DNA of 48,419 nt from Terriglobia bacterium (lineage in GTDB: Bacteria > Acidobacteriota > Terriglobia > Terriglobales > Acidobacteriaceae). The DNA lies in assembly GCA_020073015.1 (NCBI GenBank), contig JAIQFZ010000034.1, positions 1-48,419 of the forward strand. The letters are read 5' to 3'. The notes under the pieces are model-generated. The model was not told the origin of the DNA and searched no databases. It saw only the letters and a list, made by a program, of their open reading frames with translations. Positions 12,624 to 41,457 of the stretch are shown here, piece by piece. The translations under genes were made by a program, and so were the position numbers. Numbering within the stretch: position 1 is the stretch's first letter; the number at the start of each line of letters is the position of its first letter.

Positions 12624-12656
12624 GAATTGCCGAGTCACTGCGGCAGAGGATTACCG

Positions 12657-13202: not shown

Positions 13203-13227
13203 CGAGTGGCTGATTCGAATTCTCGAC

Positions 13228-16974: not shown

Positions 16975-17820
16975 ATGAAACGCAATGTCGACTTACTCGC
17001 GTCGTACTGGACGATCTCTGCGGGACAGCCGCACACCGACAGAGAGTACAGCCCCTTCGATTTTCGGGAACGTGTGGAAGCGGCGGCCAAAGCCGGGTTC
17101 AAGGGTTTTGGCATTTGGCATTCCGATCTGGACCATGTGCTGGAGCGTCGGACTCTCCCGGAGATGAAGCACATCCTCGACGATAACGGGATCCAGCATA
17201 TCGAACTGGAATTTCTCACCGACTGGTTCCTGGATGGGGAGAGGAAGAAGAAGTCGGATCTTCAGAAACAGAAACTGCTGAAAGCCGCCGAAGGGCTCGG
17301 GGCCCGACACGTGAAGGTAGGGGATTTTTTTCAGGAGAGCTGCCCCATGCCACGTCTGATCGAGGCATTTGAGGCGTTGTGTGCGGATGCTGCCGATCAC
17401 GGCACGCGGGTTGGATTTGAACTGATGCCCTTTGCCATGATCCGGACGCTGGAAGAGACGTTGGCCATGGTCGAGGGAGCGGGTGCAAAGAACGGTGGCG
17501 TCTGCTTCGATCTGTGGCACATGGTGAAGCTCGGCATCCCATACGAAGCGGTCGCGCGGGTTCCGTTGGAGTACATCGCTAGCGTGGAACTGGACGATGG
17601 AACCTTCTCCGCGCCCTGGAGCCTTCATGAAGACACTATCAATCATCGCAGGCTCTGCGGCGAAGGCGAGTTCGACATCAAGAGCTTTATCACCAGCGTG
17701 CAGCGCGCAGGGTACACGGGGCCTTGGGGGATCGAGGTCCTGTCCGAGGAGCTTCGCAAATTACCATTGGAGGAATTGACAACGCGTGCGTTCCAGACCA
17801 CCATCGCACAGTTTTGCTGA
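16975..17820 (+). CDS. Sugar phosphate isomerase/epimerase-like TIM-barrel protein
   Basis: 281 aa, xylose-isomerase-like TIM barrel (AP endonuclease 2 superfamily). Likely divalent-metal ligands are in GFELMPF, CFDLWHMVK, the His of INHRRLCGEG and GIEVLSEEL, the E-D-H-E pattern of the superfamily. Members isomerise or epimerise keto sugars or dehydrate inosose and related compounds; some act on ring-cleavage products. AGAAAGAAGAA lies just ahead of the ATG. Followed 33 bp later by a cupin gene, likely co-transcribed. Substrate not deducible. Confidence 0.82.
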   Translation: MKRNVDLLASYWTISAGQPHTDREYSPFDFRERVEAAAKAGFKGFGIWHSDLDHVLERRTLPEMKHILDDNGIQHIELEFLTDWFLDGERKKKSDLQKQKLLKAAEGLGARHVKVGDFFQESCPMPRLIEAFEALCADAADHGTRVGFELMPFAMIRTLEETLAMVEGAGAKNGGVCFDLWHMVKLGIPYEAVARVPLEYIASVELDDGTFSAPWSLHEDTINHRRLCGEGEFDIKSFITSVQRAGYTGPWGIEVLSEELRKLPLEELTTRAFQTTIAQFC

Positions 17821-17853
17821 GATCGGTACTCTTGGCTGCCAAGGGAGGCCACA

Positions 17854-18261
17854 ATGAGCCAGTTGTCCGCGCCCTCAGTTCGACCAGACTGGCCGTGGCC
17901 GGATTCGCTCGATGCGTTGCAGGCGGCGCCCGCGCACCACGAACTCTTTCTGGAGAACGATCGTGTACGTGTGATTCATACCCATATTCCCGCCGGCGAC
18001 ACTGTTCCGCTTCACACTCATCGATGGCCGGGTGTTGCCTATCTGCTGAGTTCGAGCGATTTCATCCGGCGGGATCAGCAGGGAAATGTCCTGTTGGATA
18101 GCCGTCATGCGGGCACTCCGCCAAGTGCTCCCGCGGTCCAATGGTTGGAGCCGCTGCCGCCACACACGGTGGAGAATGTGGGACATTCCGAGATCAGTAT
18201 CCTGATCGTGGAGCTCAAGGGCCCGCAATCCGGCGTGGGCCTTCCAGCGGGTCAATCCTAA
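17854..18261 (+). CDS. Single-domain cupin protein
   Basis: 135 aa with one conserved beta-barrel cupin. Motif 1 reads GDTVPLHTHRWPGVAYLL (His-x-His present, but the usual Glu is absent), motif 2 LPPHTVENVG supplies a third His. With three His the metal site is possible. Cupins of this size range from isomerases to dioxygenases and quercetinase-like proteins; nothing points to one. GGGAGG lies before the ATG. Last gene before the carboxylase operon, but a separate operator-bearing region follows. Confidence 0.75.
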   Translation: MSQLSAPSVRPDWPWPDSLDALQAAPAHHELFLENDRVRVIHTHIPAGDTVPLHTHRWPGVAYLLSSSDFIRRDQQGNVLLDSRHAGTPPSAPAVQWLEPLPPHTVENVGHSEISILIVELKGPQSGVGLPAGQS

Positions 18262-18314
18262 GGCACTGTTAAACAAGGGACGGGCGAGGTATCAGTGAAA
18301 TTTGTTTGCAAATT

Positions 18315-18333
18315 AGAACGGACGTTCGCTAGA
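18315..18333 (+). promoter_or_regulatory. TetR-type operator, site 1 (carboxylase operon)
   Basis: AGAACGGACGTTCGCTAGA contains the inverted repeat GAACG-N2-CGTTC and matches the sites at 35314 and 41436 over AACGNACGTTCGCTNGA. It lies 60-80 bp before the CoA ligase start at 18394, in the 132-bp gap after the cupin gene. Confidence 0.7.
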
Positions 18334-18393
18334 GTACTGCGCACAGCGGAAGAGACGTACACCTAAAAGGTAAGACGAGTAGGGGTGGGGGCA

Positions 18394-19731
18394 ATGCGGG
18401 GTCACGACTACCTGGACCGAGAGATCGAAACAGCCACCTTGAAGGCGATCCAGAAACTCCAGGAAGCCGAACTGGCGCGTCAGCTCGACTACTTGTTTTC
18501 GCGCTCGCTTTTTTATCAGGACAAGTTTCGTAGCGCGGGAGTTCGGCGCAAGGACTTTCGGAAGCTTGGTGACCTGGCGCGCTTTCCATTCACCAGCAAA
18601 CAAGAGCTGCGCGAAAGCCAGACCGCACATCCGCCTTTGGGACGCCACATCGCCGCGGATTGGCGCAATGTGATTCGGGTGCATAGCTCGACCGGCACCA
18701 CCGGGAAGCCCAGTTTTGTCGGAATCACCCGCCGCGACGCGCGCATGTGGACAAGGCTCACCGCCAGATCGTTCTACACCCAGGGTTGCAGGAAGACCGA
18801 CACCGTGGTCCACGCAGCGGGCCTTACTCTGTTCGTTGCCGGTCTGACATCGAAGGATGCGATTGAATCCATCGGGGCTGTGTTCGTCCCGCTGGGCACA
18901 GGTGCGTCGGAGAAGGCGCTGACCATGATTCCCTTCCTGGGCGCGAATGCCATGCACTGTACTCCGTCCTATGCGTCCTACTTCGCCGACTATGTGCGGC
19001 GGGAAGCCGCGATCGAGCCACGAGAACTTGGGTTGAAGAAGTTGTTCTGCGGTGCGGAGCCCGGCGCAGGAATTCCCGCGGTGCGTACCAAGCTGCAAGA
19101 AGATTTCGGCGCGCGGGTCACGGAAGGGCTCGGCAATGCCGACATGGCGCCGATTATCTTCAGCGAATGTCCGGAACAAGCCGGCATGCATTTCAATGGG
19201 CCCGACTTTGTAGTTGCGGAAGTGATCGACCCCGACACAGAAGAGAGTCTGCCAATCGAAGCCGGAGTAACCGGCGAGTTGGTGTACACCAGCCTGCAGA
19301 GAGAATGCGTGCCCCTGTTGCGGTTTCGCACGCGCGACCGGGTCACAGTGCTGGGAACCTCGTGCCCTTGTGGACGCACCGGCTTCCGACTGCGATGCGT
19401 CGGTCGCACCGACGACATGCTCATTGTCTTGGGCGTGAATGTGTTTCCCTCTGCGGTCCGCGACGTAGTCTCCGGTTTCCATCCTCGGACGACGGGGGAG
19501 ATTCAGATTCTGCTGGAAGGGCCCGGACCCAAGGTGGTTCCGCCGCTCAGAGTAGTGGCAGAGTGCTCAGGTCCCCCTTCGGCTAACGACGAACTGAAGG
19601 ATGAGATCGAGAGAAAAATTCGAGCCACACTGGTCGTGCCGGCGAGCGTGGAACTCGTGCCCGCAGGGACACTGCCGCGCTACGAGATGAAAGGCCAATT
19701 GGTAAGGCAGCTTTCTCGAGACAAAGTGTGA
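18394..19731 (+). CDS. Phenylacetate-CoA-ligase-family (PaaK-like) CoA ligase
   Basis: 445 aa from ATG 18394 with AGGGG about 8 bases upstream (a GTG at 18385 is an alternative). AMP-forming ligase of the PaaK group: short form without the usual long C-terminal domain, P-loop HSSTGTTGKPSFVGIT (about residues 92-107), GAEPGAG, GLGNADMAP, a zinc-like CPCG (SCPCGRTGFR), and GRTDDMLIVLGVNVFPSAV. It heads the acetophenone-carboxylase-like operon, so the natural guess is activation of the carboxylation product (an aroylacetate) to its CoA thioester. A TetR operator is at 18315. The next gene begins 30 bp after the stop. Confidence 0.88.
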   Translation: MRGHDYLDREIETATLKAIQKLQEAELARQLDYLFSRSLFYQDKFRSAGVRRKDFRKLGDLARFPFTSKQELRESQTAHPPLGRHIAADWRNVIRVHSSTGTTGKPSFVGITRRDARMWTRLTARSFYTQGCRKTDTVVHAAGLTLFVAGLTSKDAIESIGAVFVPLGTGASEKALTMIPFLGANAMHCTPSYASYFADYVRREAAIEPRELGLKKLFCGAEPGAGIPAVRTKLQEDFGARVTEGLGNADMAPIIFSECPEQAGMHFNGPDFVVAEVIDPDTEESLPIEAGVTGELVYTSLQRECVPLLRFRTRDRVTVLGTSCPCGRTGFRLRCVGRTDDMLIVLGVNVFPSAVRDVVSGFHPRTTGEIQILLEGPGPKVVPPLRVVAECSGPPSANDELKDEIERKIRATLVVPASVELVPAGTLPRYEMKGQLVRQLSRDKV

Positions 19732-19761
19732 GTCCATTGCACCGGTAGGTTGGAAAGATTC

Positions 19762-21747
19762 ATGTATAGCGTTGACATCGACGTAGGCGGAACCTTGACC
19801 GACGGCCTCTTCAGCGACGGTCATCGAACGGTGTGCACGAAGGTGGATTCCACTCCCCATGATCTGACCGTGTGTTTGTTTGACTGCCTGTCGCAAGGAG
19901 CCGCCCAGCTGGGTTTCTCCGATCTCGGAAGCTTGCTGGAGAAGATGGAACTGCTCCGGTGGTCGACCACGATCACTTCCAACGTGCTGGCGGAGTTGCG
20001 CGGCCCCAAGCTCGGTTTGCTGGTAAGCCAGGGACACGAGAAGGATCTGTATGGTAGCGATGACAGCAGCGTCCTTCTCAACAAACTGGTCGACGAAAAA
20101 AACGTCATCGGAATTGATGGGGTACACGACCCTGCGGTTCTGAACGCGGTGCGGTTGTTGCTTGAAAACGGGGTTCGCCGCATTTGCATCAGTTTGAAAG
20201 GGGCGCTGCAGGATCCGGAAGGGGAGCAACGGATCAAGCGGATCATCGACGAACAGTATCCGGACCACTACCTGGGATCGGTGCCGGTGCTTACCGGGAG
20301 CGACGTCTGCCAGAACACGGATGACACCACGCGCACGTACTACGCGGTAATCAACGCCTACCTTCACAGTGCGCTGGCGGCGACGCTGTTCAAAGCCGAA
20401 GACGAGTTGCGGTATACGCAGGGATATTCGCGGGCCTTTCTCATCAGTCACATCAATGGCGGCGTGGCCGGAGTTTCGAAGACACGCGCGATCGACACGC
20501 TGGAGTCCGGACCTGTGCTGGGGATTTACGGCGCTGCGTATCTGGCCAAGACGTACGGTGTGAAGCGCGTCCTCGCCATGGACGTCGGCGGGACCACGGC
20601 AAAGTTGGGCGTTATCCGCGACGGGGAACCGCTGCATACCCAGCAGAGCGATCTGTTTGGGATTCCCGTGCGAGTCAACCTGCCCTTCCTGCGTTCCATT
20701 GCACTCGGTGGTGGCAGCGTGGTCACGGTGAAGGATAACGGCGTGCGGCTCGGTCCGGAGAGTATGGGTTCGTTTCCGGGACCGGTTTGCTACGCGCTCG
20801 GCGGTGACAAGGCGACTCTGACCGACGCCTTCGTGACCGCCGGTTTGATTGATCCGGAGTATTTTCTCGGAGGCAACAAGCACCTGGATTTGGCGGCTGC
20901 CCGTGAAGCCATTGAAAGCCAGGTGGCGCGTCCACAGGGAACGTTCGTAGAAGACGCCTGCTGTGCTGTGATTGACGGCGCATACGACATGGTTGCCGGC
21001 ATGATTGTGAAGGCCAGCCAGGAACTCCAGCAAGACCTCTCGGATCACGTCCTGTTTGCCTACGGCGGAAACGGCGGGCTGTTTGCCTGCGGGGTTGCGC
21101 AACGGGCCGGGATTCGGACGACCTATCTCTTCGACCTGGGTCCGGTGTTCAGCGCGTTTGGATCGTCGGTGTCGGACATCTGCCACGTCTACGAGCGCTC
21201 GTTCCATCTTTTGCTGCGCGATGGTGCGGAAGTAGCGCCGCTCAACCAGGTCCTGGAAGAAATGCGCAACCAGGGCATGCGCGACCTGTTGGGCGAGGGG
21301 ATTACTCCCGAGAATACGGAGTGCTTCGTGGAACTGGAAGTGTCGCGGGCCGGCGATACGACGCTTTGCGTAAAGTGCCCGCAGGTCCGCTTCGACAATG
21401 GCGCGGAACTACGGAGTGTTCTTACGCCCGATTTTCCCCGCGGGGACGCCACGGTGGAGTTGGTGCGCATGCGAGTAAAGAAAGGAATCTCAAAACCGGC
21501 TCTCGTGATGAAGGAAAAAGGGGACCACGATCCGAGCGGCGCGCAACTCGGCATGCGCAGAGTGATGATGCAGGGAGGCGGCCAGCAAGAAGCCGCCCTC
21601 TACCGGTGGGAGTTGTTACGACCAGGGAACGTCGTGCCAGGAGGATCGATTCTCGAATCTGCAAATAGCACCTACCTGGTTCCGCCGGGGTGGAATCTGG
21701 AGATGGATCATTACGGTAACGCACTGATCCGACGCGGCACGAGTTAG
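19762..21747 (+). CDS. Acetophenone carboxylase-like subunit, HyuA family (ApcA position)
   Basis: 661 aa (about 72 kDa) from ATG 19762 (MYSVDIDVGGTLTD), with GGAAAG about 8 bases upstream. Hydantoinase/oxoprolinase A fold: two ATP-phosphate loops, DIDVGGT at residues 5-11 and AMDVGGTTAKLG around 272, plus TTITSN, GGVAGVSKTRAI and SIALGGGSVV. In acetophenone carboxylase this type of subunit helps phosphorylate the enol or bicarbonate at the cost of ATP, joining CO2 to the methyl ketone to give benzoylacetate. The size and first position match the 70-kDa subunit of the known complex. It differs clearly from the second HyuA gene at 22175, so the two are distinct subunits, not a duplication in place. 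Confidence 0.87.
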   Translation: MYSVDIDVGGTLTDGLFSDGHRTVCTKVDSTPHDLTVCLFDCLSQGAAQLGFSDLGSLLEKMELLRWSTTITSNVLAELRGPKLGLLVSQGHEKDLYGSDDSSVLLNKLVDEKNVIGIDGVHDPAVLNAVRLLLENGVRRICISLKGALQDPEGEQRIKRIIDEQYPDHYLGSVPVLTGSDVCQNTDDTTRTYYAVINAYLHSALAATLFKAEDELRYTQGYSRAFLISHINGGVAGVSKTRAIDTLESGPVLGIYGAAYLAKTYGVKRVLAMDVGGTTAKLGVIRDGEPLHTQQSDLFGIPVRVNLPFLRSIALGGGSVVTVKDNGVRLGPESMGSFPGPVCYALGGDKATLTDAFVTAGLIDPEYFLGGNKHLDLAAAREAIESQVARPQGTFVEDACCAVIDGAYDMVAGMIVKASQELQQDLSDHVLFAYGGNGGLFACGVAQRAGIRTTYLFDLGPVFSAFGSSVSDICHVYERSFHLLLRDGAEVAPLNQVLEEMRNQGMRDLLGEGITPENTECFVELEVSRAGDTTLCVKCPQVRFDNGAELRSVLTPDFPRGDATVELVRMRVKKGISKPALVMKEKGDHDPSGAQLGMRRVMMQGGGQQEAALYRWELLRPGNVVPGGSILESANSTYLVPPGWNLEMDHYGNALIRRGTS

Positions 21748-21791
21748 ACACTTGGCAGTTGATGGATAGGCGAGTTGGAGACATAGGTTTT

Positions 21792-22178
21792 ATGACCACA
21801 ACAGGCGATCGGCGCCTTCGGATTACTGAGTATCTCGATCTGGATCTGGACGGGGAGATTTGGCTCTGCAACCGCTGCAACCGAGTTCTGGGCCCGGCGC
21901 GCGAGAACTACAAGAGGGGGCTTTTGCTGTACGACCGCGACCCACGCGAAGTGCACCCCCCGATTGTCGAGGGCAATTTCAGTTTCGCTCCCGATCCTTT
22001 GTGGGTGCGAATCGTCGAATTCTACTGTCCCGGATGCGGCACGCAGATTGAAACCGAGTACCTGCCGCCCGGGCACCCGATTACTCGCGACATCGAGATC
22101 GATCTCGATGCCCTCAAAAAGCGGCTGGAGAGCGGAGAACTCATCCTGAAGAACCAACGTCTCGAGGCGGCGCCATGA
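21792..22178 (+). CDS. Acetophenone/acetone carboxylase gamma-like zinc subunit (ApcB position)
   Basis: 128 aa from ATG 21792 (MTTTGDRRLRITEYLD); alternatives are TTG 21759 and ATG 21762. Two zinc knuckles, CNRC at residues 26-29 and CPGC at 79-82, with YLDLDLDGEIWLC in front, match the small gamma subunit of ketone carboxylases (acetone carboxylase gamma family). About 15 kDa, the same as the second subunit of acetophenone carboxylase. The gene overlaps the next by four bases (ATGA, 22175-22178), which couples their translation. Presence of this subunit is what separates a ketone carboxylase from ordinary hydantoinases, which lack it. Confidence 0.85.
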   Translation: MTTTGDRRLRITEYLDLDLDGEIWLCNRCNRVLGPARENYKRGLLLYDRDPREVHPPIVEGNFSFAPDPLWVRIVEFYCPGCGTQIETEYLPPGHPITRDIEIDLDALKKRLESGELILKNQRLEAAP

Positions 22179-24292
22179 ATTCGATCGACATAGACGTGGG
22201 CGGAACCTTCACGGACATGGTGTTGAACTACGAGGGACACACCGTCATTCGTAAGGTTCCGACCACACCCTACGATCTCTCCGTCTGCTTCTCGAATGTG
22301 ATCGAGGAAGGCGCGAAAGCTCTAGACCTACGCATGGAGTCCCTGCTGCCGGCGGTGGATATGATCCGCTACTCGACCACCATTGCGCTGAACCGGCTGC
22401 TGGAAAGAAAAGGTCCGCGTCTGGGATTGATCACGACCGAAGGACATGAGGACACGACGCTGCTCGGCCGGGGCGCGCAATGGATCGACGGGACGCGCGT
22501 GCAGGAGCGGCGCAATCTCAGCATTCAGCACAAACCCGACCCGCTTATTCCGCGCGACATGATCGTGGGAGTGAAGGAACGCGTGGATTCCGGTGGACAC
22601 GTGATCCGCCCGCTGGATGAAAACGACGTACGGGAAAAGGTCCGGTATCTTGTCGGCCGGGGCGCGCGGGCCTTCGTGGTCTCGCTGCTCTGGGGATTCC
22701 TGAATCCTCTCCACGAGCGGAAAGTTAAAGACATCATTCGCAGTGAGTATAAGGAATTCCATATCGGGTACATGCCGGTCGTGCTCGCCGGTCAAGTGTC
22801 GGGAAAGCTAGGCGAGTACGAGCGCACCATGGCTGCGATTCTCGATGCTTACCTGCAGCGCTCCATGCAAATCGAACTCTCCACCTGCTGGGACAAGTTG
22901 CGGGACCGCGGCTACAAACGCTCTTTGTCGATGATCCAGAGTTCCGGTGGCATCGCCGAGGTCTTCAAGACTGCCGCCAGTCGGACCTTCAACAGCGGTC
23001 CGGTTTCCGGCCTGATGGGGGCCCACCACGTAGCCAAGTCGCTGGGCGTCCACAACGTGGTGATGGCCGATATGGGCGGTACCAGCTTTGACGTTGGCCT
23101 CGTCGTCAAAGACAGCGTACGCAGCTATGACTTTCGCCCCATCATCGACCGCTGGATGGTCGGCATCACGATGATCAAGACGCTGTCGATCGGCGCAGGC
23201 GGCGGGTCGATCGCGTCGCTGAACAAGTTGCTCAAGAACCAGTTGCAGGTGGGCCCGCGGAGCGCGGGATCCATGCCGGGGCCGGTGTGTTTCAACCGGG
23301 GTGGCACCGAGCCCACCGTGACGGATGCGGACGTGGTGTTGGGCTACATCAATCCGGCTTACTACTACGGAGGAAAGCTCGCTCTCAACGCGGCTAAAGC
23401 GGCGCAATCGATCCGCGACAAGATCGCCAAGCCGCTCGGGCTGAGTGTGGAAGAGGCCGCAGCCATCATTCGCAAGATTGTGGATGAAAACATGTCGTCC
23501 GCCATCATGAAAGAAGTGCACTTGCGGGGCTACAGCCCGGAGGAGTTCATTCTGTTCGCCGCTGGTGGCGCCGGCCCCACGCATGTGGAGGGCTTCCGAG
23601 CGGATATTCCGAAGGCGGTCATTTTTCCGTTCTCGCCGGTGTTTTGTGCCTGGGGATCGTCGACGATGGACATCATGCACGTGTACGAACACTCGAAGAA
23701 GCTCACGTTGATGGAGCCCGGCACTCATCAACTCACAAATGAATTCGACGCGTTCAATAACGCCGTCTCTCTGCTGATAGAGAATGCAAAAAGGGATCTG
23801 GCAGGAGAAGGCTTGGATCCGGCGTCGGCGAACTTCGTTCTGGAATTGGACATGCTGTATGGAGGTCAGTTCCACGTGAAGCGGACGTTGTCGCCTTTAC
23901 TTTTTGTCCGGGGGCAAGAAGACATTCGGGCCATCTGCGACGCCTTCGCCAAGGAATTCAGCGAAGCATTTAGTCCATTCGTAGTAAATCCTGACGGCGG
24001 CGTTTTCTTAGACACCTTCGTTCTGAAAGCGATTGTTCCGGCCCAGAAGGTGATCTTGCAGACGCTCCCGCTCGAAGGCCATAGCCCTGAGGCCGCTGCC
24101 AAGGGCACGCGCATGGTGTACTGGCCCGACAAGAAAGATTTCTGCATCACGGGGATTTATTCCTTCGAGAAGCTGCGGCCCGGCAATTTGATCTACGGAC
24201 CAGCCGTGGTGGAAGGGGAGTACACCACGCTGGTGGTTCCGGAGCCACTGCGGTTCTCTATCGATCAGCACGGCCTGGGAATTCTGGAGTGA
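22175..24292 (+). CDS. Acetophenone carboxylase-like subunit, HyuA family (ApcC position)
   Basis: 705 aa (about 78 kDa). Same fold as the 19762 product: MNSIDIDVGGTFTDM at the N terminus, STTIALNRLLERKGPRLGLIT, GKLGEYERTMAAILDAYL, QSSGGIAEV, MADMGGTSFDVG as second phosphate loop, and a C-terminal beta-rich part (RPGNLIYGPAVVEGEYTTLVVP). Predicted ATPase subunit of the carboxylase complex. It begins in an ATGA overlap with the gamma gene and ends 13 bp before the HyuB gene, so all are one transcript. Third position in the operon, the place of the 87-kDa subunit in the characterised acetophenone carboxylase, although this protein is somewhat smaller. Confidence 0.88.
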   Translation: MNSIDIDVGGTFTDMVLNYEGHTVIRKVPTTPYDLSVCFSNVIEEGAKALDLRMESLLPAVDMIRYSTTIALNRLLERKGPRLGLITTEGHEDTTLLGRGAQWIDGTRVQERRNLSIQHKPDPLIPRDMIVGVKERVDSGGHVIRPLDENDVREKVRYLVGRGARAFVVSLLWGFLNPLHERKVKDIIRSEYKEFHIGYMPVVLAGQVSGKLGEYERTMAAILDAYLQRSMQIELSTCWDKLRDRGYKRSLSMIQSSGGIAEVFKTAASRTFNSGPVSGLMGAHHVAKSLGVHNVVMADMGGTSFDVGLVVKDSVRSYDFRPIIDRWMVGITMIKTLSIGAGGGSIASLNKLLKNQLQVGPRSAGSMPGPVCFNRGGTEPTVTDADVVLGYINPAYYYGGKLALNAAKAAQSIRDKIAKPLGLSVEEAAAIIRKIVDENMSSAIMKEVHLRGYSPEEFILFAAGGAGPTHVEGFRADIPKAVIFPFSPVFCAWGSSTMDIMHVYEHSKKLTLMEPGTHQLTNEFDAFNNAVSLLIENAKRDLAGEGLDPASANFVLELDMLYGGQFHVKRTLSPLLFVRGQEDIRAICDAFAKEFSEAFSPFVVNPDGGVFLDTFVLKAIVPAQKVILQTLPLEGHSPEAAAKGTRMVYWPDKKDFCITGIYSFEKLRPGNLIYGPAVVEGEYTTLVVPEPLRFSIDQHGLGILE

Positions 24293-24305
24293 CGAAGCAG
24301 GAACT

Positions 24306-26363
24306 ATGCCCATACCAACCTTGGCGGAAAAGCTGCAGTGGCTGAAGCCGGCGCCGGCTACCGACTACGAGAAGGAATGTGTCCAGACGATCAAGCACGG
24401 CAGCTATGAGATCGGCGTGCAGATCACCAACGACATTCTCGACGAGGCCATGGAAGTGTTCGTCCGCTCCTCGCGCAGCTATTTTGGCGTCTCTGGCGAT
24501 TCGATGGTGGCCATCTTTACGGCCGGAGGAGACCTGATCAATGGCTCGTGTGGCACCTATCTCCACGCCATCATTCAGCCCATCATCATCAAGTTCATTT
24601 TGAAGTACTACCAGGAGAACCCCGGCATCCGCGACGGAGACATTTTCTACACCAACGACGCGCTCTACGGCGGAATCCACAATCCGGATCAGGTCGCGAT
24701 TATGCCCGTGTTCCACGAGGGCAGGCTGATTGCCTGGGCGACCGCCGCTCTGCATACGACCGAGACAGGCGCTGTCGAACCGGGAGGCATGCCCGTCAGT
24801 GCCAAGTCACGGTTCGAAGAGGGATTAAATATGCCGCCGATCAAGATCGGCGAGAACTTCCACTTGCGCAATGATTTCCTGGAGTTCTATTCGGTGTACG
24901 GCCTGCGCGCGCCCGCCATGTTCATTTCTGATTTGCGGGCACGCTGCACAACTGCCGACCGCGTACGCGTTCGCCTGCTCGAGCAAGTTGAGAAGAGAGG
25001 AGTCGAGTTCATCGTTGGCCTGATGCGCAAGATGCTCGACGTAGCCGAGGCGGGCGCATTCCAGAAGGTCAAGGCTCTTCCCGACGGCAAGTTTCGCAGC
25101 GTCGTATTCAACGATGCCATCGGTTGGACACCGGCCTTGGTCCGCGCCTGCTTCCTCACGCTCACGAAGTCGGGCGACCGACTGACGTTCGACTTTGAGG
25201 GCACCTCGCCCGAGAATCCCTCGTCCTATAACGTCCACACGCAGGCGGTCGTGGGACACATTGCCAATTTCATGTACGAGTACTTCTTCCACGATTTGCC
25301 CATTTGTAGCTCCACGTTCGCGCCGATCGATTTTGTTTTCCCGGAAGGCATCATTCTCAACCCCGACAAGCTGGCGGCAACCAGCTGCTGTGTGTACATC
25401 GGAATGCAAACGCGCTGCGCAACTCACAACTGCTTCGCCAAGATGATGTACGCGACGAATCTCTGGACCCAGGTAGCATCGGCGCCCGGAAGCCAGCACA
25501 CGGCGCAAATCTGCGCTGGCCATTCCCAGTGGAATCTGGCCGTCTCCGATGTGCTCTCGTTCTCGCTCAACACACAGGGGCAAGGCGGCCGCGCCGCCGA
25601 TGACGGGATGGATGCTTATGGATTCGCCTGGTGCGCCTTCGGACGCGCTCCGGATTGCGAACAGGTGGAAGGAGAACTGCCCATCACCGTCAACTTGTCC
25701 CAGCACTGGAAGGATTCCTCCGGTCCCGGCCTCCATCGCGGCGGCTCGGGCGCTGTCCAGCAATGGATGATTCATAAAGTGCCGAACATGCTGTCTCTGT
25801 GTATGGGTAACGGCAGCAAAGTACCGCTCGGCCAGCCCTTGTTCGGTGGGTATGCTTCAGCGCCGATCCCAGGTATCAGCGTACGCAAAACCGATATGCT
25901 CGCGCGCATGCGAGAAGGCGATCCGGAATTGACCTTGGACCATCGTGAGCTTCTGGAAGACCGATCCACTCATGGGGATTGGACGTTTGAACTGATCGCG
26001 CGTACTCCGAAGATGTACAGCGAGGGTGACCTGCTCTTCGGCTTCAGCGGAGGCGGACCAGGCTATGGCGATCCGCTGGAGCGGGCGCCGGAGAGTGTGG
26101 TAGTGGACTTGAAGAAGAGGATCATCTCCGAGTGGACGGCAAAAAATGTGTACCGCGTAGCCTTCGATACCGAGCGGGGCAAGGTAGACAACGCACAAAC
26201 GAATGAACTGCGGGCGGCGGAGCGCAAGGCACGTCTGGCGCGCGGAAAGCCCTATGACGCCTTTGTGGCGGACTGGAGTAAGCAATCCCCGCCGCAGGAA
26301 ATTCTGCAGTATTACGGGTCCTGGCCGGATGCCAAACCGACGGGACCGGTCTTCCGGCCTTAG
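24306..26363 (+). CDS. Acetophenone carboxylase-like subunit, HyuB family (ApcD position)
   Basis: 685 aa (about 76 kDa), hydantoinase B/oxoprolinase family. Visible family blocks: FVRSSRSYFGVSGDSMVAIF, GDIFYTNDALYGGIHNPDQ (usually GD...NDP..GG.H..D), GGMPVSAKSRFEEGL, SDLRARCTTADRV, FDFEGTSPENPSSYN, GPGLHRGGSGAVQQW and FGFSGGGPGYGDPLERAPE. In ketone carboxylases this is the subunit where the ketone enolate is thought to react. Subunit mass and fourth place fit the 75-kDa component. Its TAG stop overlaps the AGGAG ribosome site of the next gene, so the five genes are tightly linked. Confidence 0.88.
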   Translation: MPIPTLAEKLQWLKPAPATDYEKECVQTIKHGSYEIGVQITNDILDEAMEVFVRSSRSYFGVSGDSMVAIFTAGGDLINGSCGTYLHAIIQPIIIKFILKYYQENPGIRDGDIFYTNDALYGGIHNPDQVAIMPVFHEGRLIAWATAALHTTETGAVEPGGMPVSAKSRFEEGLNMPPIKIGENFHLRNDFLEFYSVYGLRAPAMFISDLRARCTTADRVRVRLLEQVEKRGVEFIVGLMRKMLDVAEAGAFQKVKALPDGKFRSVVFNDAIGWTPALVRACFLTLTKSGDRLTFDFEGTSPENPSSYNVHTQAVVGHIANFMYEYFFHDLPICSSTFAPIDFVFPEGIILNPDKLAATSCCVYIGMQTRCATHNCFAKMMYATNLWTQVASAPGSQHTAQICAGHSQWNLAVSDVLSFSLNTQGQGGRAADDGMDAYGFAWCAFGRAPDCEQVEGELPITVNLSQHWKDSSGPGLHRGGSGAVQQWMIHKVPNMLSLCMGNGSKVPLGQPLFGGYASAPIPGISVRKTDMLARMREGDPELTLDHRELLEDRSTHGDWTFELIARTPKMYSEGDLLFGFSGGGPGYGDPLERAPESVVVDLKKRIISEWTAKNVYRVAFDTERGKVDNAQTNELRAAERKARLARGKPYDAFVADWSKQSPPQEILQYYGSWPDAKPTGPVFRP

Positions 26364-26371
26364 GAGAACGG

Positions 26372-27370
26372 GTGACGGAACTGACACCGCGAGCGATGAT
26401 CCGGGCGATGCTGCAGGGCGATCTGCTGCCGCGCCCCTTGCTGCTGCCCATCGTCTTCTCGCTCGGAGCCAGACTCGAGAATCTGTCGCCGCGCGCGTTC
26501 CTCGCGAATGCAACCAGAATCGCGAACTCGCAACGCCAAATCCGCAAGGTGTTGGGGCTCGATGGTGTCACGTGCTACTTCGATCCCTATCTGGAGGCGG
26601 AGGCTTTCGGTTGCGAGTTGACGTGGAGCGCAGATGAAATGACCCGCGTGCTTCGTCCCTTGGGAGGGAATGCGGTCGACTTGCGGGAACGACTCCGAGC
26701 GCCGGAGGAAATTGTGCAACGGGGCCAGATTCCTGTGGCCTGCGATGTCTTGCGGCGGCTCAAAACGATGTTGCCAGGAGAACCGGCTTTGATGGCTGGC
26801 GTGTCCGGACCGTGCGCCTTGGCCGACTTGTTGGTGGGAAGCGCGTGCGCGGTCGAATCGTCCCGTCACGGCGTTATTGATTTCGCCGCGGAATTGACCG
26901 CGGCGGTCTGCACGAGCTTCCTCCAGTCCGGCGCCAACGTGATCTTCCTTCGCGAGGACGGCGCGTCAATCCAGGATTGCAAGCAATGGGCAGAGTTGTT
27001 GTCACCCATTGTGAACGTCATCCGTTTCTATGAGGCGTTGCCTGTACTTCTCTTTGACGGCCCACCTCCAGAGTCCGCACTTGCTGCACTGGAAGCAGAT
27101 TGCGAGCGAGTGATCTGTCCTGGAGCGATCGATTCGGCATTGGGAACAGTCCTGCCGACGTCGACTTTCGCATCCGCGTATTTACCGGAGACATGCTGGT
27201 TGCCATCCCCGAAAGAAAATGGTGCGCTGGGCAAGTCACTGCAGGCTCTGGTACGGGACACGAATCTGTGTGTGCTCACGTCTCAGCGAGATGTTCCGAA
27301 AGACGTAGATGTGAAGTCCTTGGCCAACTTGTTCGGCAGTCTGCGCAGTGTGTCGCGAGTCGTGGCTTGA
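26372..27370 (+). CDS. Uroporphyrinogen-decarboxylase-fold protein (ApcE position)
   Basis: 332 aa (about 36 kDa) from GTG 26372, AGGAG about 6 bases upstream. Resembles the URO-D/MtaA methyltransferase superfamily: LLLPIVFSLGARLENLS, LDGVTCYFDPYLEAEAFGCEL, VSGPCALADLL, ANVIFLREDGA, ERVICPGAID. The usual C-terminal Cys/His zinc motif of MtaA enzymes is not evident. It occupies the place and size of the 34-kDa fifth (epsilon) subunit of acetophenone carboxylase, which is needed for activity but is not tightly bound. Whether the known fifth subunit has this fold I cannot confirm from memory. A methyl-transfer or haem role is the alternative reading. Confidence 0.7.
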   Translation: MTELTPRAMIRAMLQGDLLPRPLLLPIVFSLGARLENLSPRAFLANATRIANSQRQIRKVLGLDGVTCYFDPYLEAEAFGCELTWSADEMTRVLRPLGGNAVDLRERLRAPEEIVQRGQIPVACDVLRRLKTMLPGEPALMAGVSGPCALADLLVGSACAVESSRHGVIDFAAELTAAVCTSFLQSGANVIFLREDGASIQDCKQWAELLSPIVNVIRFYEALPVLLFDGPPPESALAALEADCERVICPGAIDSALGTVLPTSTFASAYLPETCWLPSPKENGALGKSLQALVRDTNLCVLTSQRDVPKDVDVKSLANLFGSLRSVSRVVA

Positions 27371-27394
27371 TGACGGGGAGGTTTGACCTAAAAC

Positions 27395-27865
27395 ATGTTT
27401 GTCAATCGCAAGCGCATATTGATCGAATTCGGGGATTGCGATCCCGCCGACATCGTTTTTTTCGCCAACTATTTTCGTTGGTTTGACGACTGCACCACCG
27501 CCCTCTTTCTGGCGGCCGGGCTTCCGGTTCGCAATCTCTTCAAGTCCTATGGCGTGATGGGGATTCCCATTGTGGATGCCCGGGCCCGGTTCATCACACC
27601 GTCCACTCACGGCGATGAATTGGAAGTGGAGTCCCGCATCACGGAATTGCGCAAAAGTAGTTTCGTCATCACCCACAGATTCTTCCGGAAGGGAGAACTT
27701 ACACTGGAAGGACAGGAGACGCGGGTGTGGGCAGCAGCGCACCCGACCGAATCGAACCGGATGAAAGCTGTGCCTCTGCCCAGGGAAGTCATAGAGAAAC
27801 TTTCGCAGAACGCGAAGCCGGCCGGACGTAAGGCGTCCAGACGAGGGGCACGTTCCCACCACTGA
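27395..27865 (+). CDS. 4-hydroxybenzoyl-CoA thioesterase
   Basis: 156 aa hot-dog-fold thioesterase. The N terminus IEFGDCDPADIVFFANYFRW is close to Pseudomonas 4-hydroxybenzoyl-CoA thioesterase (IEFGDCDPAGIVWYPNYHRW), with the catalytic Asp at residue 16, and further matching blocks are GLP, GVMGIPIVDARARF, HGDELEVESRI and KSSFVITH. It would release 4-hydroxybenzoate from its CoA thioester, the product expected after thiolytic cleavage of 4-hydroxybenzoylacetyl-CoA. The substrate for PobA (3496) would come from here. The gene lies 24 bp after the fifth carboxylase gene and 12 bp before the PQQ dehydrogenase, in the same apparent operon. Basic Lys/Arg-rich tail beyond the usual end. Confidence 0.88.
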   Translation: MFVNRKRILIEFGDCDPADIVFFANYFRWFDDCTTALFLAAGLPVRNLFKSYGVMGIPIVDARARFITPSTHGDELEVESRITELRKSSFVITHRFFRKGELTLEGQETRVWAAAHPTESNRMKAVPLPREVIEKLSQNAKPAGRKASRRGARSHH

Positions 27866-27877
27866 AAAGGGCACGTA

Positions 27878-30034
27878 ATGGACTTGCTGAGGAGGAGAAT
27901 GAGCTGGCTTGTCGACGCACGAATTGCGCTTGTCTTGACTGTGGTAGTGTCCTGCGGTTGCAACCTGTCCACGACGAAGCACTCCCAACCGCAAACGGCC
28001 GGGCCAGGAAGCGTGACCGAAGTCCGGCTGGTCAACGCCGATCATGAGCCGGGCAACTGGCTAGCCTATGGACGCACCTACAACGAGGAGCGCTTCAGTC
28101 CCCTCCAGGAGATCTCCGGCCGAAACGTCAACCAGCTCGGGCTAGCGTGGTCCTTCGATCTGGACACGCACCGGGGGCAGGAAGCAACCCCGATCGTGGT
28201 GGATGGCGTCATGTACTTCACCTCGGCCTGGAGCAGGGTGTTCGCGTTGAATGCAGCCACCGGCGCATTGCTCTGGTCCTACGATCCGAAAGTTCCACGG
28301 GAATGGGGAGTAAATGCGTGTTGCGATGTTGTCAACCGGGGCGTCGCGCTATGGAAGGGGAAGGTCTACGTCGGCACGCTGGACGGGCGGCTGGTAGCAC
28401 TTGACGCAGCCACCGGCAAGCTGGTTTGGGAGCAACTGACGATTGACCGGAACTGGCGCTATACCATCACCGGCGCGCCGCGCATCGTCAAAGGCAAGGT
28501 GATCATCGGCAACGGTGGCGGGGAGTTCGGCGTGCGCGGCTACGTTTCCGCTTACGATGCGGAGAGCGGCCAGATGGTGTGGCGTTTCTATACCGTGCCG
28601 GGCGATCCTGCGAAGCCTTTCGAAAGTCCGATTCTGGCGCAAGCGGCCAAGACCTGGTCGGGCGAGTGGTGGAAGAACGGCGGCGGCGGGACGGTTTGGG
28701 ACGCCATCGTCTACGACCCTGAGCTCGATCTCTTGTATGTGGGGACCGGCAACGGCGGACCGTGGAACGGAAAGATCCGGAGCCCGAAAGGCGGCGACAA
28801 TCTTCTCACCTGCTCCATCGTAGCCCTGCGGCCGGAGACGGGAGAATACGTCTGGCACTATCAGGAAGACGCAGCCGACGACTGGGATTTCGATTCGTCG
28901 GAGCAGATCATCCTGGCCGACATTCCGATCGACGGCAAGACGCGCAAAGTGCTCCTGCACGCTCCGAAGAATGGGATCTTCTATGTGATCGACCGTGAAA
29001 ACGGCGCCGTAATTTCGGCGAGGCCCTACACGTTCATCAACTGGGCCACCGGGGTTGATCTGAAAACCGGGCGCCCGATGGAGACTGATATTGCGCACTA
29101 CCCTGGAGAGAACCCGCCGCCCATCGTTCCCGGGCCATTGGGTGCGCATAGCTGGCAACCTATGTCGTACAGCCCGATCACTGGATTGACCTACATTCCA
29201 GTGAACGACGTTGGCTTCAAGTTCAAGGCGGCAGATAACTTCGAGTTCAAGAAGCTGGCGGCGAACTACGGGATTGATACGGTGGCGGCGGGCATGCCAC
29301 AGGATCCGACAATCAAAAAGGCGATTCTCGACACCGTCAAGGGGAAACTGGTGGCGTGGGATCCGGTGCAACAGAAGCAAGCATGGGCAGTCGAGCGGCC
29401 TGGACCATGGAATGGCGGAACCCTTGCCACCGCGGGAAATCTCGTCTTCGAGGGCACGGCTGCGGGGCGTTTTGAGGCATATCGCGCTGACACGGGCGAG
29501 AAGGTCTGGTCGTTTGACGCGCAGACGGGCGTGATGGCGGGGCCTGTGACCTACACCGTCAAGGGTGAACAGTACGTCGCAATTCTCGCGGGGTGGGGCG
29601 GTGTGTTTCCGCTGGCGACGGGTGAGGTTTCGTTCAAGTCCGGCCGCGTGCGGAATGTCAGCCGTATGCTGGCCTTCAAACTGGGCGGGAAGGCGAGTTT
29701 GCCTCCGCTGCCAGAGGTGGAAGAGCCCATCCTGAATCCGCCGCGTTCTGTGGCTGACTCTGCCACGATTCACCGTGGGGAAGCGCTCTTTCAGCGTTTC
29801 TGTGCGTCCTGCCATGGCGACGTGGCAGTCAGCGGAGGAGTGTTGCCGGATCTCCGCTACTCCAGCACGCTGGCAAATGACCGCTGGTTCAAAATCGTAC
29901 GCGACGGGGCTTATCAATCGCTCGGCATGGTGTCGTTTGCCAAGGAAGTATCGCAGAAGGACGCCGCTGACATGCGGACCTACGTGATTTTTCGGGCGAA
30001 CCAGAGCAAAGCGGATCAAGTACCACACAAGTAG
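27878..30034 (+). CDS. Quinohaemoprotein (PQQ) alcohol dehydrogenase with C-terminal cytochrome c
   Basis: 718 aa. Probable lipoprotein signal (VVVSC, about residues 22-26). The eight-bladed PQQ propeller has NWLAYGRTYNEERFSPLQ, the adjacent-Cys pair typical of PQQ enzymes at C148-C149 (VNACCDV), and repeated Trp-docking motifs (AATGALLWSYD, AATGKLVWEQ, ESGQMVWRF, DTGEKVWSFD). The active-site segment W336-D-F-D339 carries the second Asp seen in lanthanide-dependent enzymes. A cytochrome c domain follows with C642-ASC-H646 and a Met near residue 686. Periplasmic oxidation of an alcohol, perhaps 1-(4-hydroxyphenyl)ethanol to the ketone that feeds the carboxylase; this link is inference from co-location. 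AAAAGGG ribosome site, ATG at 27878. Confidence 0.9.
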   Translation: MDLLRRRMSWLVDARIALVLTVVVSCGCNLSTTKHSQPQTAGPGSVTEVRLVNADHEPGNWLAYGRTYNEERFSPLQEISGRNVNQLGLAWSFDLDTHRGQEATPIVVDGVMYFTSAWSRVFALNAATGALLWSYDPKVPREWGVNACCDVVNRGVALWKGKVYVGTLDGRLVALDAATGKLVWEQLTIDRNWRYTITGAPRIVKGKVIIGNGGGEFGVRGYVSAYDAESGQMVWRFYTVPGDPAKPFESPILAQAAKTWSGEWWKNGGGGTVWDAIVYDPELDLLYVGTGNGGPWNGKIRSPKGGDNLLTCSIVALRPETGEYVWHYQEDAADDWDFDSSEQIILADIPIDGKTRKVLLHAPKNGIFYVIDRENGAVISARPYTFINWATGVDLKTGRPMETDIAHYPGENPPPIVPGPLGAHSWQPMSYSPITGLTYIPVNDVGFKFKAADNFEFKKLAANYGIDTVAAGMPQDPTIKKAILDTVKGKLVAWDPVQQKQAWAVERPGPWNGGTLATAGNLVFEGTAAGRFEAYRADTGEKVWSFDAQTGVMAGPVTYTVKGEQYVAILAGWGGVFPLATGEVSFKSGRVRNVSRMLAFKLGGKASLPPLPEVEEPILNPPRSVADSATIHRGEALFQRFCASCHGDVAVSGGVLPDLRYSSTLANDRWFKIVRDGAYQSLGMVSFAKEVSQKDAADMRTYVIFRANQSKADQVPHK

Positions 30035-30049
30035 CTTTCGGAGTCCAGA

Positions 30050-30089
30050 GCCGAGCTGCGCTCGGCCGGACAGCCGAGGGCGGCTGTCC
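30050..30089. terminator. Double hairpin between convergent genes
   Basis: GCCGAG-CTGCG-CTCGGC (30050-30066) is followed by GGACAGCCG-AGGG-CGGCTGTCC (30068-30089, 9-bp perfect stem). It lies between the ends of the PQQ dehydrogenase (+) and the VanA-like gene (-), so it may end both transcripts; the second element is of a type repeated in Acidobacteriota genomes. Confidence 0.55.
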
Positions 30090-31103
30090 CTACGTGTATC
30101 GCGCCAACTCGCGCTCGATGATGCGCCGCGCGTGCACTCCGCCGGCGTCAATCTTGAGATTCAGCAGTTGCCGGTCGGGACGTCGCAGGATGTTTTCCTG
30201 CTGAGACTCGAGAATCTCCGTGTCCTCGGCGAATACCGCCGCCTGCCCATCCCGGATGCGGAACGTCAGCCCGCGGTCGTCGGTCTGGAAATTGCGGGCC
30301 ATGCCCCAGTGATACCACGTGGAAGTATCCGTTTCGGGAGTCATCAGGTTCACCACGATACCCGTCACGCCCTGCGACCGATTTCCCTCTGGCGCACCAG
30401 TTCCCGCTCGCGCAACGCCGACGTCGATCATGACGTTGGCCGGCAACGTGAAATTGCAAATCTGCCAGCGGTCACACTTTTCATAGGACTTCAGGTTGGC
30501 AGCCCAGAATGGTGGCGGGTCGATGTTGTACATCCATCGCGTCACCTGAACGGACTTTTCGTCCGACGCAACCTTGATGGGAGCTTCGAGAATTTCGTGC
30601 TGTCCGATACTGGAAGGATGGACAAACGTTTCGTGCGATAGATCCATCAAGTTGTCCACCAGAAGCTGGTAATTGCACTTGACGTGATACGTGCTGCCTT
30701 CAAACACCCAAGCTGGATCCGAACACCAGGACAGATCTGGAATCTTCTTCTCATCCGCTAGCGCCGAATCTCCGATCCATACGCACACGAATCGGTGTTT
30801 TTCCGCGACCGGATACGTCCGAACTTTGGCGTCCTTGTGGATGCCCTCCTGCCCCGGCATCCAGATGCACTGGCCCCGCGAATCGAAACGGAGACCGTGG
30901 TACTTGCAAACCAGCCCGTCGTCGTTCAGGAATCCCTTGGACAGAGGCAATAACCGGTGTGGGCAACAATCCTCGAAGGCACAAAGGGCGCCGTTGGTCT
31001 GCCGATAAAGGACGATAGGTTCACCACAGATGGTTCGTCCGAAGGGTGAGCGCTTGATCTCGTGATCCCAAGCGACGGCATACCAATGATTGCGCAGGAA
31101 CAT
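30090..31103 (-). CDS. VanA-like Rieske non-haem iron oxygenase
   Basis: 337 aa, close to vanillate O-demethylase oxygenase (VanA): MFLRNHWYAVAWDHEI, FGRTICGEPIVLYR, Rieske [2Fe-2S] ligands C47-x-H49 and C66-x2-H69, DNLMDLSHETFVHPSSIGQHEI with the mononuclear-iron His/His, PPFW, DRWQICNFTLPANVMIDVGVA, TPETDTSTWYHWGMARNF and RRPDRQLLNLKIDAGGVHARR. It would remove the O-methyl group of vanillate-like substrates to give protocatechuate and formaldehyde. The reductase VanB is not in the window. Minus strand, TGAGGAG upstream of the ATG. The methyltransferase-type genes on the same strand upstream suggest a shared link to methoxylated aromatics. Confidence 0.88.
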   Translation of the reverse strand: MFLRNHWYAVAWDHEIKRSPFGRTICGEPIVLYRQTNGALCAFEDCCPHRLLPLSKGFLNDDGLVCKYHGLRFDSRGQCIWMPGQEGIHKDAKVRTYPVAEKHRFVCVWIGDSALADEKKIPDLSWCSDPAWVFEGSTYHVKCNYQLLVDNLMDLSHETFVHPSSIGQHEILEAPIKVASDEKSVQVTRWMYNIDPPPFWAANLKSYEKCDRWQICNFTLPANVMIDVGVARAGTGAPEGNRSQGVTGIVVNLMTPETDTSTWYHWGMARNFQTDDRGLTFRIRDGQAAVFAEDTEILESQQENILRRPDRQLLNLKIDAGGVHARRIIERELARYT

Positions 31104-31134
31104 TGAAACTCCTCAGGCACTTAACAACTAGCGT

Positions 31135-31183
31135 TTAGCACTTAGCCAACAACGAAAACGAATCGGTGTCGGCTAAGTGCTAA
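31135..31183. repeat. REP/MITE-like palindrome with TTAGC motifs
   Basis: Perfect 13-bp stem: TTAGCACTTAGCC (31135-31147) pairs with GGCTAAGTGCTAA (31171-31183), loop 23 bases, flanked by further TTAGC/TTAAC variants. Sits in the 100-bp gap between the VanA-like and methyltransferase genes. May be a stabilising hairpin or a dispersed repeat. Confidence 0.55.
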
Positions 31184-31203
31184 CAGCTAACTGCCAAGAG
31201 CTA

Positions 31204-32856: not shown

Positions 32857-32868
32857 GGCTGCGGTCTC

Positions 32869-33873: not shown

Positions 33874-34080
33874 AGGATCTCCTGCATGGGTGCACGTTCC
33901 TCCGTCGCGCGTCATGATAACCCGAGGTGCCTTGTCTTCCGGTAGGGCACTTGAAAGTAACCGGTTGTAGGCGAGCACGAAGTCGGATAAATTGATGCCC
34001 GCTTTTGGAAAGATGCAGTCGCACCCGGGATTGCAAGCATGATCCGGGTGCTGAGAAGTTGGGCCCTGGGGAGGTATCAC

Positions 34081-35187: not shown

Positions 35188-35266
35188 GGACAGCGGCGGC
35201 ATTTACGGCGTAGGGTTTTGAACGGTGGGGTTGGGTACGAATCCAGTTCTGATCTAGTGAATGAAA

Positions 35267-35294
35267 CCCCGTGTTCCGCAGTTGGAACACGGGG
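35267..35294 (+). terminator. Strong 11-bp hairpin after MetE-like copy B
   Basis: CCCCGTGTTCC (35267-35277) pairs perfectly with GGAACACGGGG (35284-35294) around GCAGTT. It lies between the copy B stop and the operator/promoter of the second TonB receptor. No T-run follows; it would separate the two transcripts. Confidence 0.55.
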
Positions 35295-35313
35295 CTGCTC
35301 GGGTGCGGAAAAT

Positions 35314-35332: not shown

Positions 35333-35347
35333 ATGACAGGAGATGCT

Positions 35348-41454: not shown

Positions 41455-41457
41455 CCC

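Follow-up and report, generated by a model that had tools for sequence, protein, structure and literature searches.

An eight-gene run with an acetophenone carboxylase-type core

The stretch of DNA analysed here (the window, 48,419 nucleotides) makes up one complete contig, C202, in the genome of a soil Terriglobia bacterium (Acidobacteriota), which comprises 5.5 Mb in 245 contigs (G000; labels in G denote genomes of our comparison set, in C contigs and in L apc loci). Eight of its genes form a run on the plus strand at 18385-30034, with intergenic gaps of at most 24 bases and one 4-base overlap. They encode, in order, a PaaK-type CoA ligase, ApcA, ApcB, ApcC, ApcD, a divergent ApcE, a thioesterase of the 4HBT family and a pyrroloquinoline quinone (PQQ)-dependent alcohol dehydrogenase (Table 1). 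An initial annotation had proposed that the window holds an acetophenone carboxylase-type operon, two or three CoA ligases, a thiolase, a 4-hydroxybenzoyl-CoA thioesterase and PobA; by coordinates, Pfam and NCBIfam we found all of these genes where it had placed them, with three CoA ligases. The extent of the operon needed revision, as the run is longer and the PQQ alcohol dehydrogenase also belongs to it. This gene begins 12 bases past the thioesterase and holds the equal position in the related locus L020, and a 68% homologue lies upstream on the opposite strand in L061. A promoter and terminator scan of 17800-31300 returned one promoter-like and 10 terminator-like sites, not above shuffled sequence.

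Table 1. Genes of the apc run, followed by other features of the window
Feature	Position	Strand	Basis or remark
PaaK-type AMP-forming CoA ligase	18385-19731	+	GTG start; alternative ATG 18394; proposed aroylacetate-CoA ligase, Bal counterpart
apcA-like, alpha' subunit, proposed bicarbonate kinase	19750-21747	+	582 bits to 5L9W chain b; NCBIfam ApcA 682 bits (cut-off 1250)
apcB-like, gamma subunit	21759-22178	+	169 bits to 5L9W chain C; NCBIfam ApcB 190 bits (cut-off 250); four zinc-ligand cysteines retained
apcC-like, alpha subunit, proposed ketone kinase	22175-24292	+	996 bits to 5L9W chain B; NCBIfam ApcC 1098 bits (cut-off 1500); pocket comparison; tree
apcD-like, beta subunit	24306-26363	+	851 bits to 5L9W chain A; NCBIfam ApcD 902 bits (cut-off 1500); 53% identity to Aromatoleum ApcD
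apcE-like URO-D/MtaA-related protein, divergent epsilon subunit	26372-27370	+	Pfam URO-D; site behind apcD; NCBIfam ApcE 87 bits (cut-off 450)
4HBT-family thioesterase, proposed 4-hydroxybenzoyl-CoA thioesterase	27395-27865	+	78.8 bits to 1BVQ
PQQ-dependent alcohol dehydrogenase, C-terminal cytochrome c	27878-30034	+	TIGR03075 671 bits (cut-off 480); Cytochrome_CBB3
PobA, 4-hydroxybenzoate 3-monooxygenase	2288-3496	-	TIGR02360 equivalog, 573.3 bits (cut-off 538.7, passed)
Thiolase, proposed aroylacetyl-CoA thiolase	42103-43341	-	TIGR01930 376 bits (cut-off 241)
Further AMP-dependent ligase	39699-41459	-	sequence scan
Further AMP-dependent ligase	45101-46672	+	sequence scan
VanA_C Rieske protein	30090-31103		neighbour of run
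AprA-MT2-like protein	31204-32856	-	
MetE-like protein	32869-34287	-	
TonB-receptor-like outer-membrane proteins, carboxypeptidase-regulatory-like domains	4053-7529; 35261-39022	-; +	flanking island

The carboxylase belongs to the Apc family

Searches against solved structures place ApcA to ApcD with the acetophenone carboxylase of Aromatoleum (5L9W; scores in Table 1). For ApcC, acetone carboxylase reached 340 bits and oxoprolinase or hydantoinase at most 318; for ApcD and ApcB, acetone carboxylase reached 171 and 28 bits; and for ApcA the runner-up was the paralogous chain B of 5L9W itself (315 bits). Oxoprolinase and N-methylhydantoinase chains rank beneath acetone carboxylase in these searches. 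Gene order, clustering and subunit length have been described as separating Apc from acetone carboxylase (Acx) and hydantoinase (Hyd), the latter being reported there as lacking a gamma subunit (PMC5214803). The order apcABCD(E), encoding alpha', gamma, alpha, beta and epsilon, is found at 19750-27370, and the alpha', gamma, alpha and beta subunits are 665, 139, 705 and 685 amino acids long, compared with 658, 129, 732 and 684 in 5L9W. Solved Acx chains measure 168 (gamma), 717 (alpha-type) and 776 (beta-type) amino acids, and the window fits Apc instead. By eye in the alignments, gamma has its four cysteines, alpha carries the KERxDsxG motif as KERVDSGG, and the ASKHA phosphate and GxxPGP motifs are present, with one ApcC phosphate motif reading DMGGT in place of DVGGT. 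A URO-D-like protein stands at the place expected for epsilon but falls far below the ApcE cut-off (Table 1); the epsilon subunit of Apc is divergent and absent from some operons (PMC5214803).

We then placed ApcC in a midpoint-rooted tree of 52 ApcC-type rows, with an outgroup of one Acx, one oxoprolinase and one hydantoinase on very long branches. A 47-row branch unites the window with Aromatoleum (support 98/95), and the window lies inside a 24-row clade (100/99) that adjoins the rows containing Aromatoleum and consists of 23 Acidobacteriota-labelled rows, the window and G055 included, and a metagenome-assembled genome of Myxococcota (L037). An incomplete apcC kept L028 out of the tree. Taken together, the structure scores and the tree uphold the reading of the HyuA/HyuB-type proteins as ketone carboxylase subunits, and it is near certain that the carboxylase is of the Apc type; on scores, gene order and tree we rejected an identity as hydantoinase/oxoprolinase or as acetone carboxylase.

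The folds are nonetheless of the hydantoinase type, and a RutB-like cysteine hydrolase of the isochorismatase family precedes apcA, behind the ligase where one is present, at 12 of the 25 Acidobacteriota loci described below (e.g. L014:15690-16367, minus strand). Its Asp, Lys and Cys motifs, which we take to be catalytic, are conserved, and it is absent from the runs of the window and L020. Such a hydrolase would suit an ATP-dependent amidohydrolase of hydantoinase or lactamase type, with no carboxylase involved. We consider this extremely improbable, as scores and tree side with Apc, as does the five-gene apcABCD(E) order with the gamma subunit that hydantoinases are described as lacking (PMC5214803).

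The only other match to PF02538 (HyuB) in the window's genome, on C217, scores 681 bits with the Pfam model, compared with 258 for ApcD. Two genomes hold a second, distant Apc-like apcABCD cluster (L015 in G055:C2 and L016 in G004:C301), whose ApcC is 44-45% identical. Genes for a thiolase and an AMP-dependent ligase lie close by, apcE has no match there, and the pocket motif, LLEVKS, differs. These clusters probably encode another ketone carboxylase.

Relatives carry thiolase, thioesterase and PobA in the apc run

To place the window among its relatives, we compared ApcD across several sets of genomes. In a set of 61 genomes that contains the window's genome, ApcD orthologues above 80% identity occur in G001 (97%), G003 (85%) and G055 (81%), the last from a different family of the same class as the source; G004 and G055 have additional, distant ApcD matches (32-39%). 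Among 396 genomes drawn evenly from the phylum, an ApcD match at E 1e-200 was found in the window's own genome only, suggesting that the cluster is rare and patchy. Scanning contigs from 84,980 species, each represented by a single genome, with the ApcD alignment yielded 50 loci, of which 24 have Acidobacteriota record titles; with the G055 locus (L014) added and the window itself excluded, this makes 25 Acidobacteriota loci and 26 others. Counts below refer to informative loci, defined by 4 kb or more of sequence past apcD and an ApcD match that spans 40% of the query (19 Acidobacteriota and 22 others; L032, L033, L060, L061, L067 and L069, and L044, L051, L053 and L066, are excluded). A plasmid search returned 10 records, ~30-41% identical to ApcD.

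On its minus strand G055 carries genes for an alpha/beta hydrolase, a PaaK-type ligase, a RutB-like hydrolase, ApcA-E, a thiolase, a 4HBT thioesterase and PobA, and the ligase, thiolase, 4HBT thioesterase and PobA are 68%, 69%, 49% and 68% identical to those of the window. Against the window's whole genome, G055 PobA and the G055 thioesterase each have one match, the former inside the window and the latter the gene at 27395. The G055 thiolase finds its best match at 42112-43332 (69%), with a runner-up of at most 50%. These matches are the strongest support for the order of steps proposed below, since they are independent of proximity within the window. The order apcE-thiolase-4HBT-pobA is repeated in L024 and L028, and L068 has apcE, an Fcs-like ligase, the thiolase, 4HBT and pobA. 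The sequence of ligase, carboxylase, thiolase, thioesterase and PobA, which the initial annotation had arranged from known chemistry, is an actual gene order in relatives.

Across the informative loci, a 4HBT gene is found at 9/19 in Acidobacteriota and 0/22 elsewhere (Fisher 0.0003), and pobA at 4/19 and 0/22 (Fisher 0.04). Dropping one locus of each near-identical pair gives 0.001 and 0.07, and all of these values are descriptive, as the locus rows share ancestry and are hence non-independent. A thiolase of the window's type occurs at eight of the 19 Acidobacteriota loci, once on the opposite strand; matches at seven of the 22 other loci have just 24-27% identity. The 4HBT carriers fall into three subclades, one with L014, L023, L024, L026 and L027, one with L030 and L068, and one with the window and L020.

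The closest solved relative of the window thioesterase is 1BVQ, which we take to be the 4-hydroxybenzoyl-CoA thioesterase of the Pseudomonas type. In Pseudomonas CBS-3, 4-hydroxybenzoyl-CoA thioesterase serves chlorobenzoate dehalogenation. The window protein resembles 1BVQ in belonging to the 4HBT family and in the catalytic Asp motif, GDCDP, which is kept in 10/10 aligned 4HBT rows, the window included; it differs in that the two share only 78.8 bits. The grouping with 4-hydroxybenzoyl-CoA thioesterases in the initial annotation therefore holds for the nearest PDB structure and the retained motif, at a moderate similarity seen by pairwise scores only. We propose that this thioesterase acts on 4-hydroxybenzoyl-CoA.

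Two types of CoA ligase alternate at apc loci

The ligase that opens the run has the Pfam domains AMP-binding and AMP-binding_C_2, scores 257-263 bits with PaaK models, under their cut-offs, and matches phenylacetate-CoA ligases in the PDB. An orthologue of at least 75% identity lies upstream of apcA at 8/19 informative Acidobacteriota loci (split over two frames in L027), and an Fcs-like acyl-CoA synthetase, at least 66% identical to that of L068, is present at 6/19; no locus has both and five have neither. The upstream side is invisible at L029, among the six, and at L028 and L036, among the five, contigs starting inside apcA or apcC. The Fcs-like ligase scores 758 bits with NCBIfam PRK12582 (cut-off 777), a subfamily that presumably includes feruloyl-CoA synthetase. 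Its best PDB match is a malonyl-CoA ligase (75 bits), feruloyl-CoA synthetase reaching 41 bits among the 60 matches listed, scores too low to indicate its substrate. We read the exchange as one obligatory step, the activation of aroylacetate, that may have been taken over by unrelated ligases; alternatively, the Fcs-like ligase could act on hydroxycinnamates.

If so, thiolase, thioesterase and PobA, all of which would suit it, might form a beta-oxidative p-coumarate route that shares the operon by chance. We regard this as very unlikely, given that the Fcs-like ligase is confined to loci without a visible PaaK-type orthologue and that neither enoyl-CoA hydratase nor hydroxyacyl-CoA dehydrogenase is found among the classified run genes of L014, L024, L028, L030 and L068, some neighbours there being unclassified.

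The ketone pocket and the lower pathway

Seven residues have been tentatively taken to line the site where Apc alpha is presumed to bind the ketone (PMC5214803). The window ApcC retains six of them, with Gln344 replaced by Lys (Aromatoleum numbering). In a comparison of 47 rows, from which the distant L015 and L016 and rows below 600 amino acids were excluded, position 344 is Lys in 24/24 clade rows, the other 23 rows having Gln (22) or Glu (one). Position 283, in the stretch 281-285, is Ser in 24/24 clade rows and Gly in 23/23 others.

For the lower pathway, paired adjacent PF00775 matches were found in all four genomes searched (G000, G001, G003 and G055). On contig C29 of the window's genome, outside the window, pcaH, pcaG and pcaB score above their equivalog cut-offs; the G055 counterparts lie ~16 kb from its apc run, with pcaG and pcaB over the cut-off and the first gene recognised by PF00775 only. 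The end point at protocatechuate, as first annotated, is thus matched by protocatechuate 3,4-dioxygenase genes in the window's genome. LigB (PF02900) has no match in G000, G001 or G055 and one in G003, and extradiol protocatechuate cleavage was rejected for the window's genome on the absence of a LigB match. At L067, a PcaR/PobR-type IclR regulator (4360-5319; 322 bits, cut-off 285) lies immediately upstream of apcA, which accords with a link to 4-hydroxybenzoate/protocatechuate metabolism.

BoxB exceeds its cut-off in G055 only; the matches in G000, G001 and G003 are partial and below it, leaving a benzoyl-CoA/Box end point unsupported in the window's genome. The full BoxB of G055 would fit an ordinary acetophenone route, in which unsubstituted acetophenone is carboxylated, the thioesterase yields benzoate, and PobA and the rest serve unrelated aromatics. 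The pocket, with six of its seven named residues identical, is compatible with this, and the only characterised enzyme of the kind uses acetophenone, with analogues giving little or no response of its operon reporter (PMC4729919). We find such a route unlikely, given the partial BoxB matches of the window's genome, the substrate of PobA, which is 4-hydroxybenzoate, and the sharing of the apc run by 4HBT and pobA in several Acidobacteriota and in 0/22 outside loci.

Neighbouring genes

Next to the run lie genes for VanA_C Rieske, AprA-MT2-like and MetE-like proteins (30090-34287). The MetE-like and AprA-MT2-like pair (31204-34287, minus strand) recurs directly behind 4HBT in L026 and L027 and upstream of apcA in L030 and L064; in L030 the MetE-like protein (37%) adjoins MTHFR. 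The pair possibly handles methyl groups of methoxylated aromatics. On this basis the substrate could be a methoxylated ketone, acetovanillone or acetosyringone, O-demethylated by the VanA-like Rieske protein or by the methyl-transfer pair, and the placement behind 4HBT in two loci and of MetE-like and MTHFR genes upstream of apc in L030 would agree with this. We hold it to be quite unlikely: vanillate would need no PobA, in the closest relative, L020, no Rieske gene separates the PQQ dehydrogenase gene from that of the AprA-MT2-like protein, and only putative roles can be assigned to the MetE-like and AprA-MT2-like proteins.

Members of the protein cluster to which the two large TonB-receptor-like proteins belong lie upstream of the apc genes, on the same strand, in 14/25 Acidobacteriota loci, and aromatic uptake is a possible function. 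At 11010-14832 the window also has a thiamine pyrophosphate (TPP) enzyme of the benzoylformate decarboxylase type (621 bits, cut-off 493) with a GMC oxidoreductase nearby; in L023 both have relatives close to the apc run, and in L027 only the GMC oxidoreductase does. This pair may feed aromatic aldehydes to the same lower pathway.

A proposed route from aryl methyl ketone to protocatechuate

An aryl methyl ketone is a likely substrate, and probably one with a 4-hydroxyl group, of which 4-hydroxyacetophenone is the simplest candidate; the cluster would carboxylate it and pass the product to an oxygen-dependent lower pathway. The gene identities, the gene order in relatives and the family of the carboxylase are observations, from which we infer the substrate, every reaction and the expression of the run. 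In the first step, the PQQ dehydrogenase, a run member only in the window and L020, would oxidise a 1-arylethanol to the ketone. By chemistry carried over from the proposal for Aromatoleum Apc, the complex would then spend two ATP, ApcC phosphorylating the ketone enol and ApcA bicarbonate, and both phosphorylated parts would be joined to aroylacetate, with no biotin and no earlier phosphorylation of the ring hydroxyl. The PaaK-type ligase, or the Fcs-like ligase in other members, would make the CoA ester, which the thiolase would split into 4-hydroxybenzoyl-CoA and acetyl-CoA. The 4HBT thioesterase would release 4-hydroxybenzoate, PobA would convert it to protocatechuate, and PcaHG would cleave the ring.

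Several observations weigh against this route. In Aromatoleum, 4'-hydroxyacetophenone is described as being degraded not by Apc but along an entirely separate pathway (PMC4729919). All five Apc subunits score below their NCBIfam equivalog cut-offs, so the window encodes a relative rather than a certified equivalent of the Aromatoleum enzyme, and its substrate may differ. The pocket comparison is weak as a statistical argument: with 7/704 ApcC positions fixed in the clade, the chance that one named pocket residue is among them is p ~0.07, which is suggestive, not decisive. The Myxococcota locus L037 has K344 and S283 with no 4HBT or pobA within 9.6 kb, so that the two residues mark the clade and are no proof of substrate; the changes may predate the hydroxybenzoate link or signify something else. 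Within the stretch seen, 10/19 informative Acidobacteriota loci have no 4HBT and 15/19 no pobA. In the window itself PobA lies ~15 kb and the thiolase ~12 kb from the run, their linkage resting on relatives, and the thioesterase is only 49% identical to its G055 counterpart. The RutB-like hydrolase has no place in the proposed scheme.

More tentatively, and at somewhat under an even chance, Acidobacteriota may have independently evolved a hydroxyacetophenone carboxylation free of biotin and ring phosphorylation, carried out by an Apc-type double-kinase carboxylase, in which the pocket Lys344 would hold the phenolate and thiolase, thioesterase and PobA would direct carbon to protocatechuate, not benzoyl-CoA.

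Relation to known systems

The initial annotation had presented an aerobic Apc route as a departure from the known one. Aromatoleum, however, degrades acetophenone through Apc and Bal both aerobically and anaerobically, so that Apc operating with oxygen is no novelty (PMC4729919). The window resembles the ApcABCDE and Bal system of Aromatoleum aromaticum EbN1 (5L9W; PMC5214803, PMC4729919) in gene order, five subunits, lengths, signature motifs and an adjacent CoA ligase. It differs in sequence (Table 1 for ApcD; Lys344 for Gln and Ser283 for Gly in ApcC), in having the ligase upstream of the apc genes and not behind them, and in the thioesterase inside the run, to which relatives add thiolase and PobA. 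The thioesterase, together with the thiolase and PobA of the relatives, makes 4-hydroxybenzoate/protocatechuate the likely end point, not benzoyl-CoA. As of PMC5214803, the Apc family had one biochemically characterised member.

The Hpe and Acv carboxylases, which had also been named for comparison, turned out to be analogues of a different enzyme type, and membership of the window's carboxylase among them was rejected (PMC9618137, PMC13101465). In Rhodococcus rhodochrous GD02, HpeHI phosphorylates hydroxyphenylethanones and the biotin-dependent HpeCBA, described as non-homologous to the ATP-dependent Aromatoleum carboxylase, carboxylates the phosphorylated ketone (PMC9618137); the Acv operon of Sphingobium lignivorans SYK-6 is homologous to Hpe (PMC13101465). 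Like the proposed route, Hpe and Acv carboxylate the acetyl group, in GD02 followed by a CoA ester and the splitting off of acetyl-CoA; their end products are 4-hydroxybenzoate or vanillate, and protocatechuate. Unlike it, they use a two-component ring-hydroxyl kinase and a three-component carboxylase, biotin-dependent in GD02, where a beta-ketoacyl-CoA hydrolase replaces thiolase and thioesterase. A Pfam scan of 30 window proteins, which leaves aside a few small ORFs and the remaining genome, shows no Hpe/Acv-type kinase or biotin-dependent carboxylase.

Growth on hydroxyphenylethanones has been reported for four strains, namely GD02, SYK-6, Novosphingobium aromaticivorans and Pseudomonas rhizophila (PMC13101465, 2026). 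The P. rhizophila route is thought to start by ring hydroxylation, and the carboxylating pathways are described as beginning with a kinase (PMC13101465). A Baeyer-Villiger type 4-hydroxyacetophenone route in Pseudomonas fluorescens is cited by PMC9618137, whose authors state that no other aerobic aromatic pathway with carboxylation was known to them. An acetophenone carboxylase core operon has been described in a soil Paraconexibacter, which is not an acidobacterium (PMC11737030). Among the listed papers of a mostly open-access literature, judged by title and the opening of the abstract, we found no Apc-type hydroxyacetophenone carboxylase and no Apc in Acidobacteriota. Since the known carboxylating routes for hydroxyacetophenone combine a kinase with an unrelated carboxylase, a route through Apc would be new as a variant, though not as a kind of system.

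If the proposed route is correct, it would be a second chemical solution to hydroxyphenylethanone carboxylation and would extend the Apc family to hydroxylated, possibly lignin-derived substrates. The pocket lysine fixed in the clade provides a direct mutational handle on substrate choice, and uncultured soil Acidobacteriota would gain a concrete aromatic pathway.

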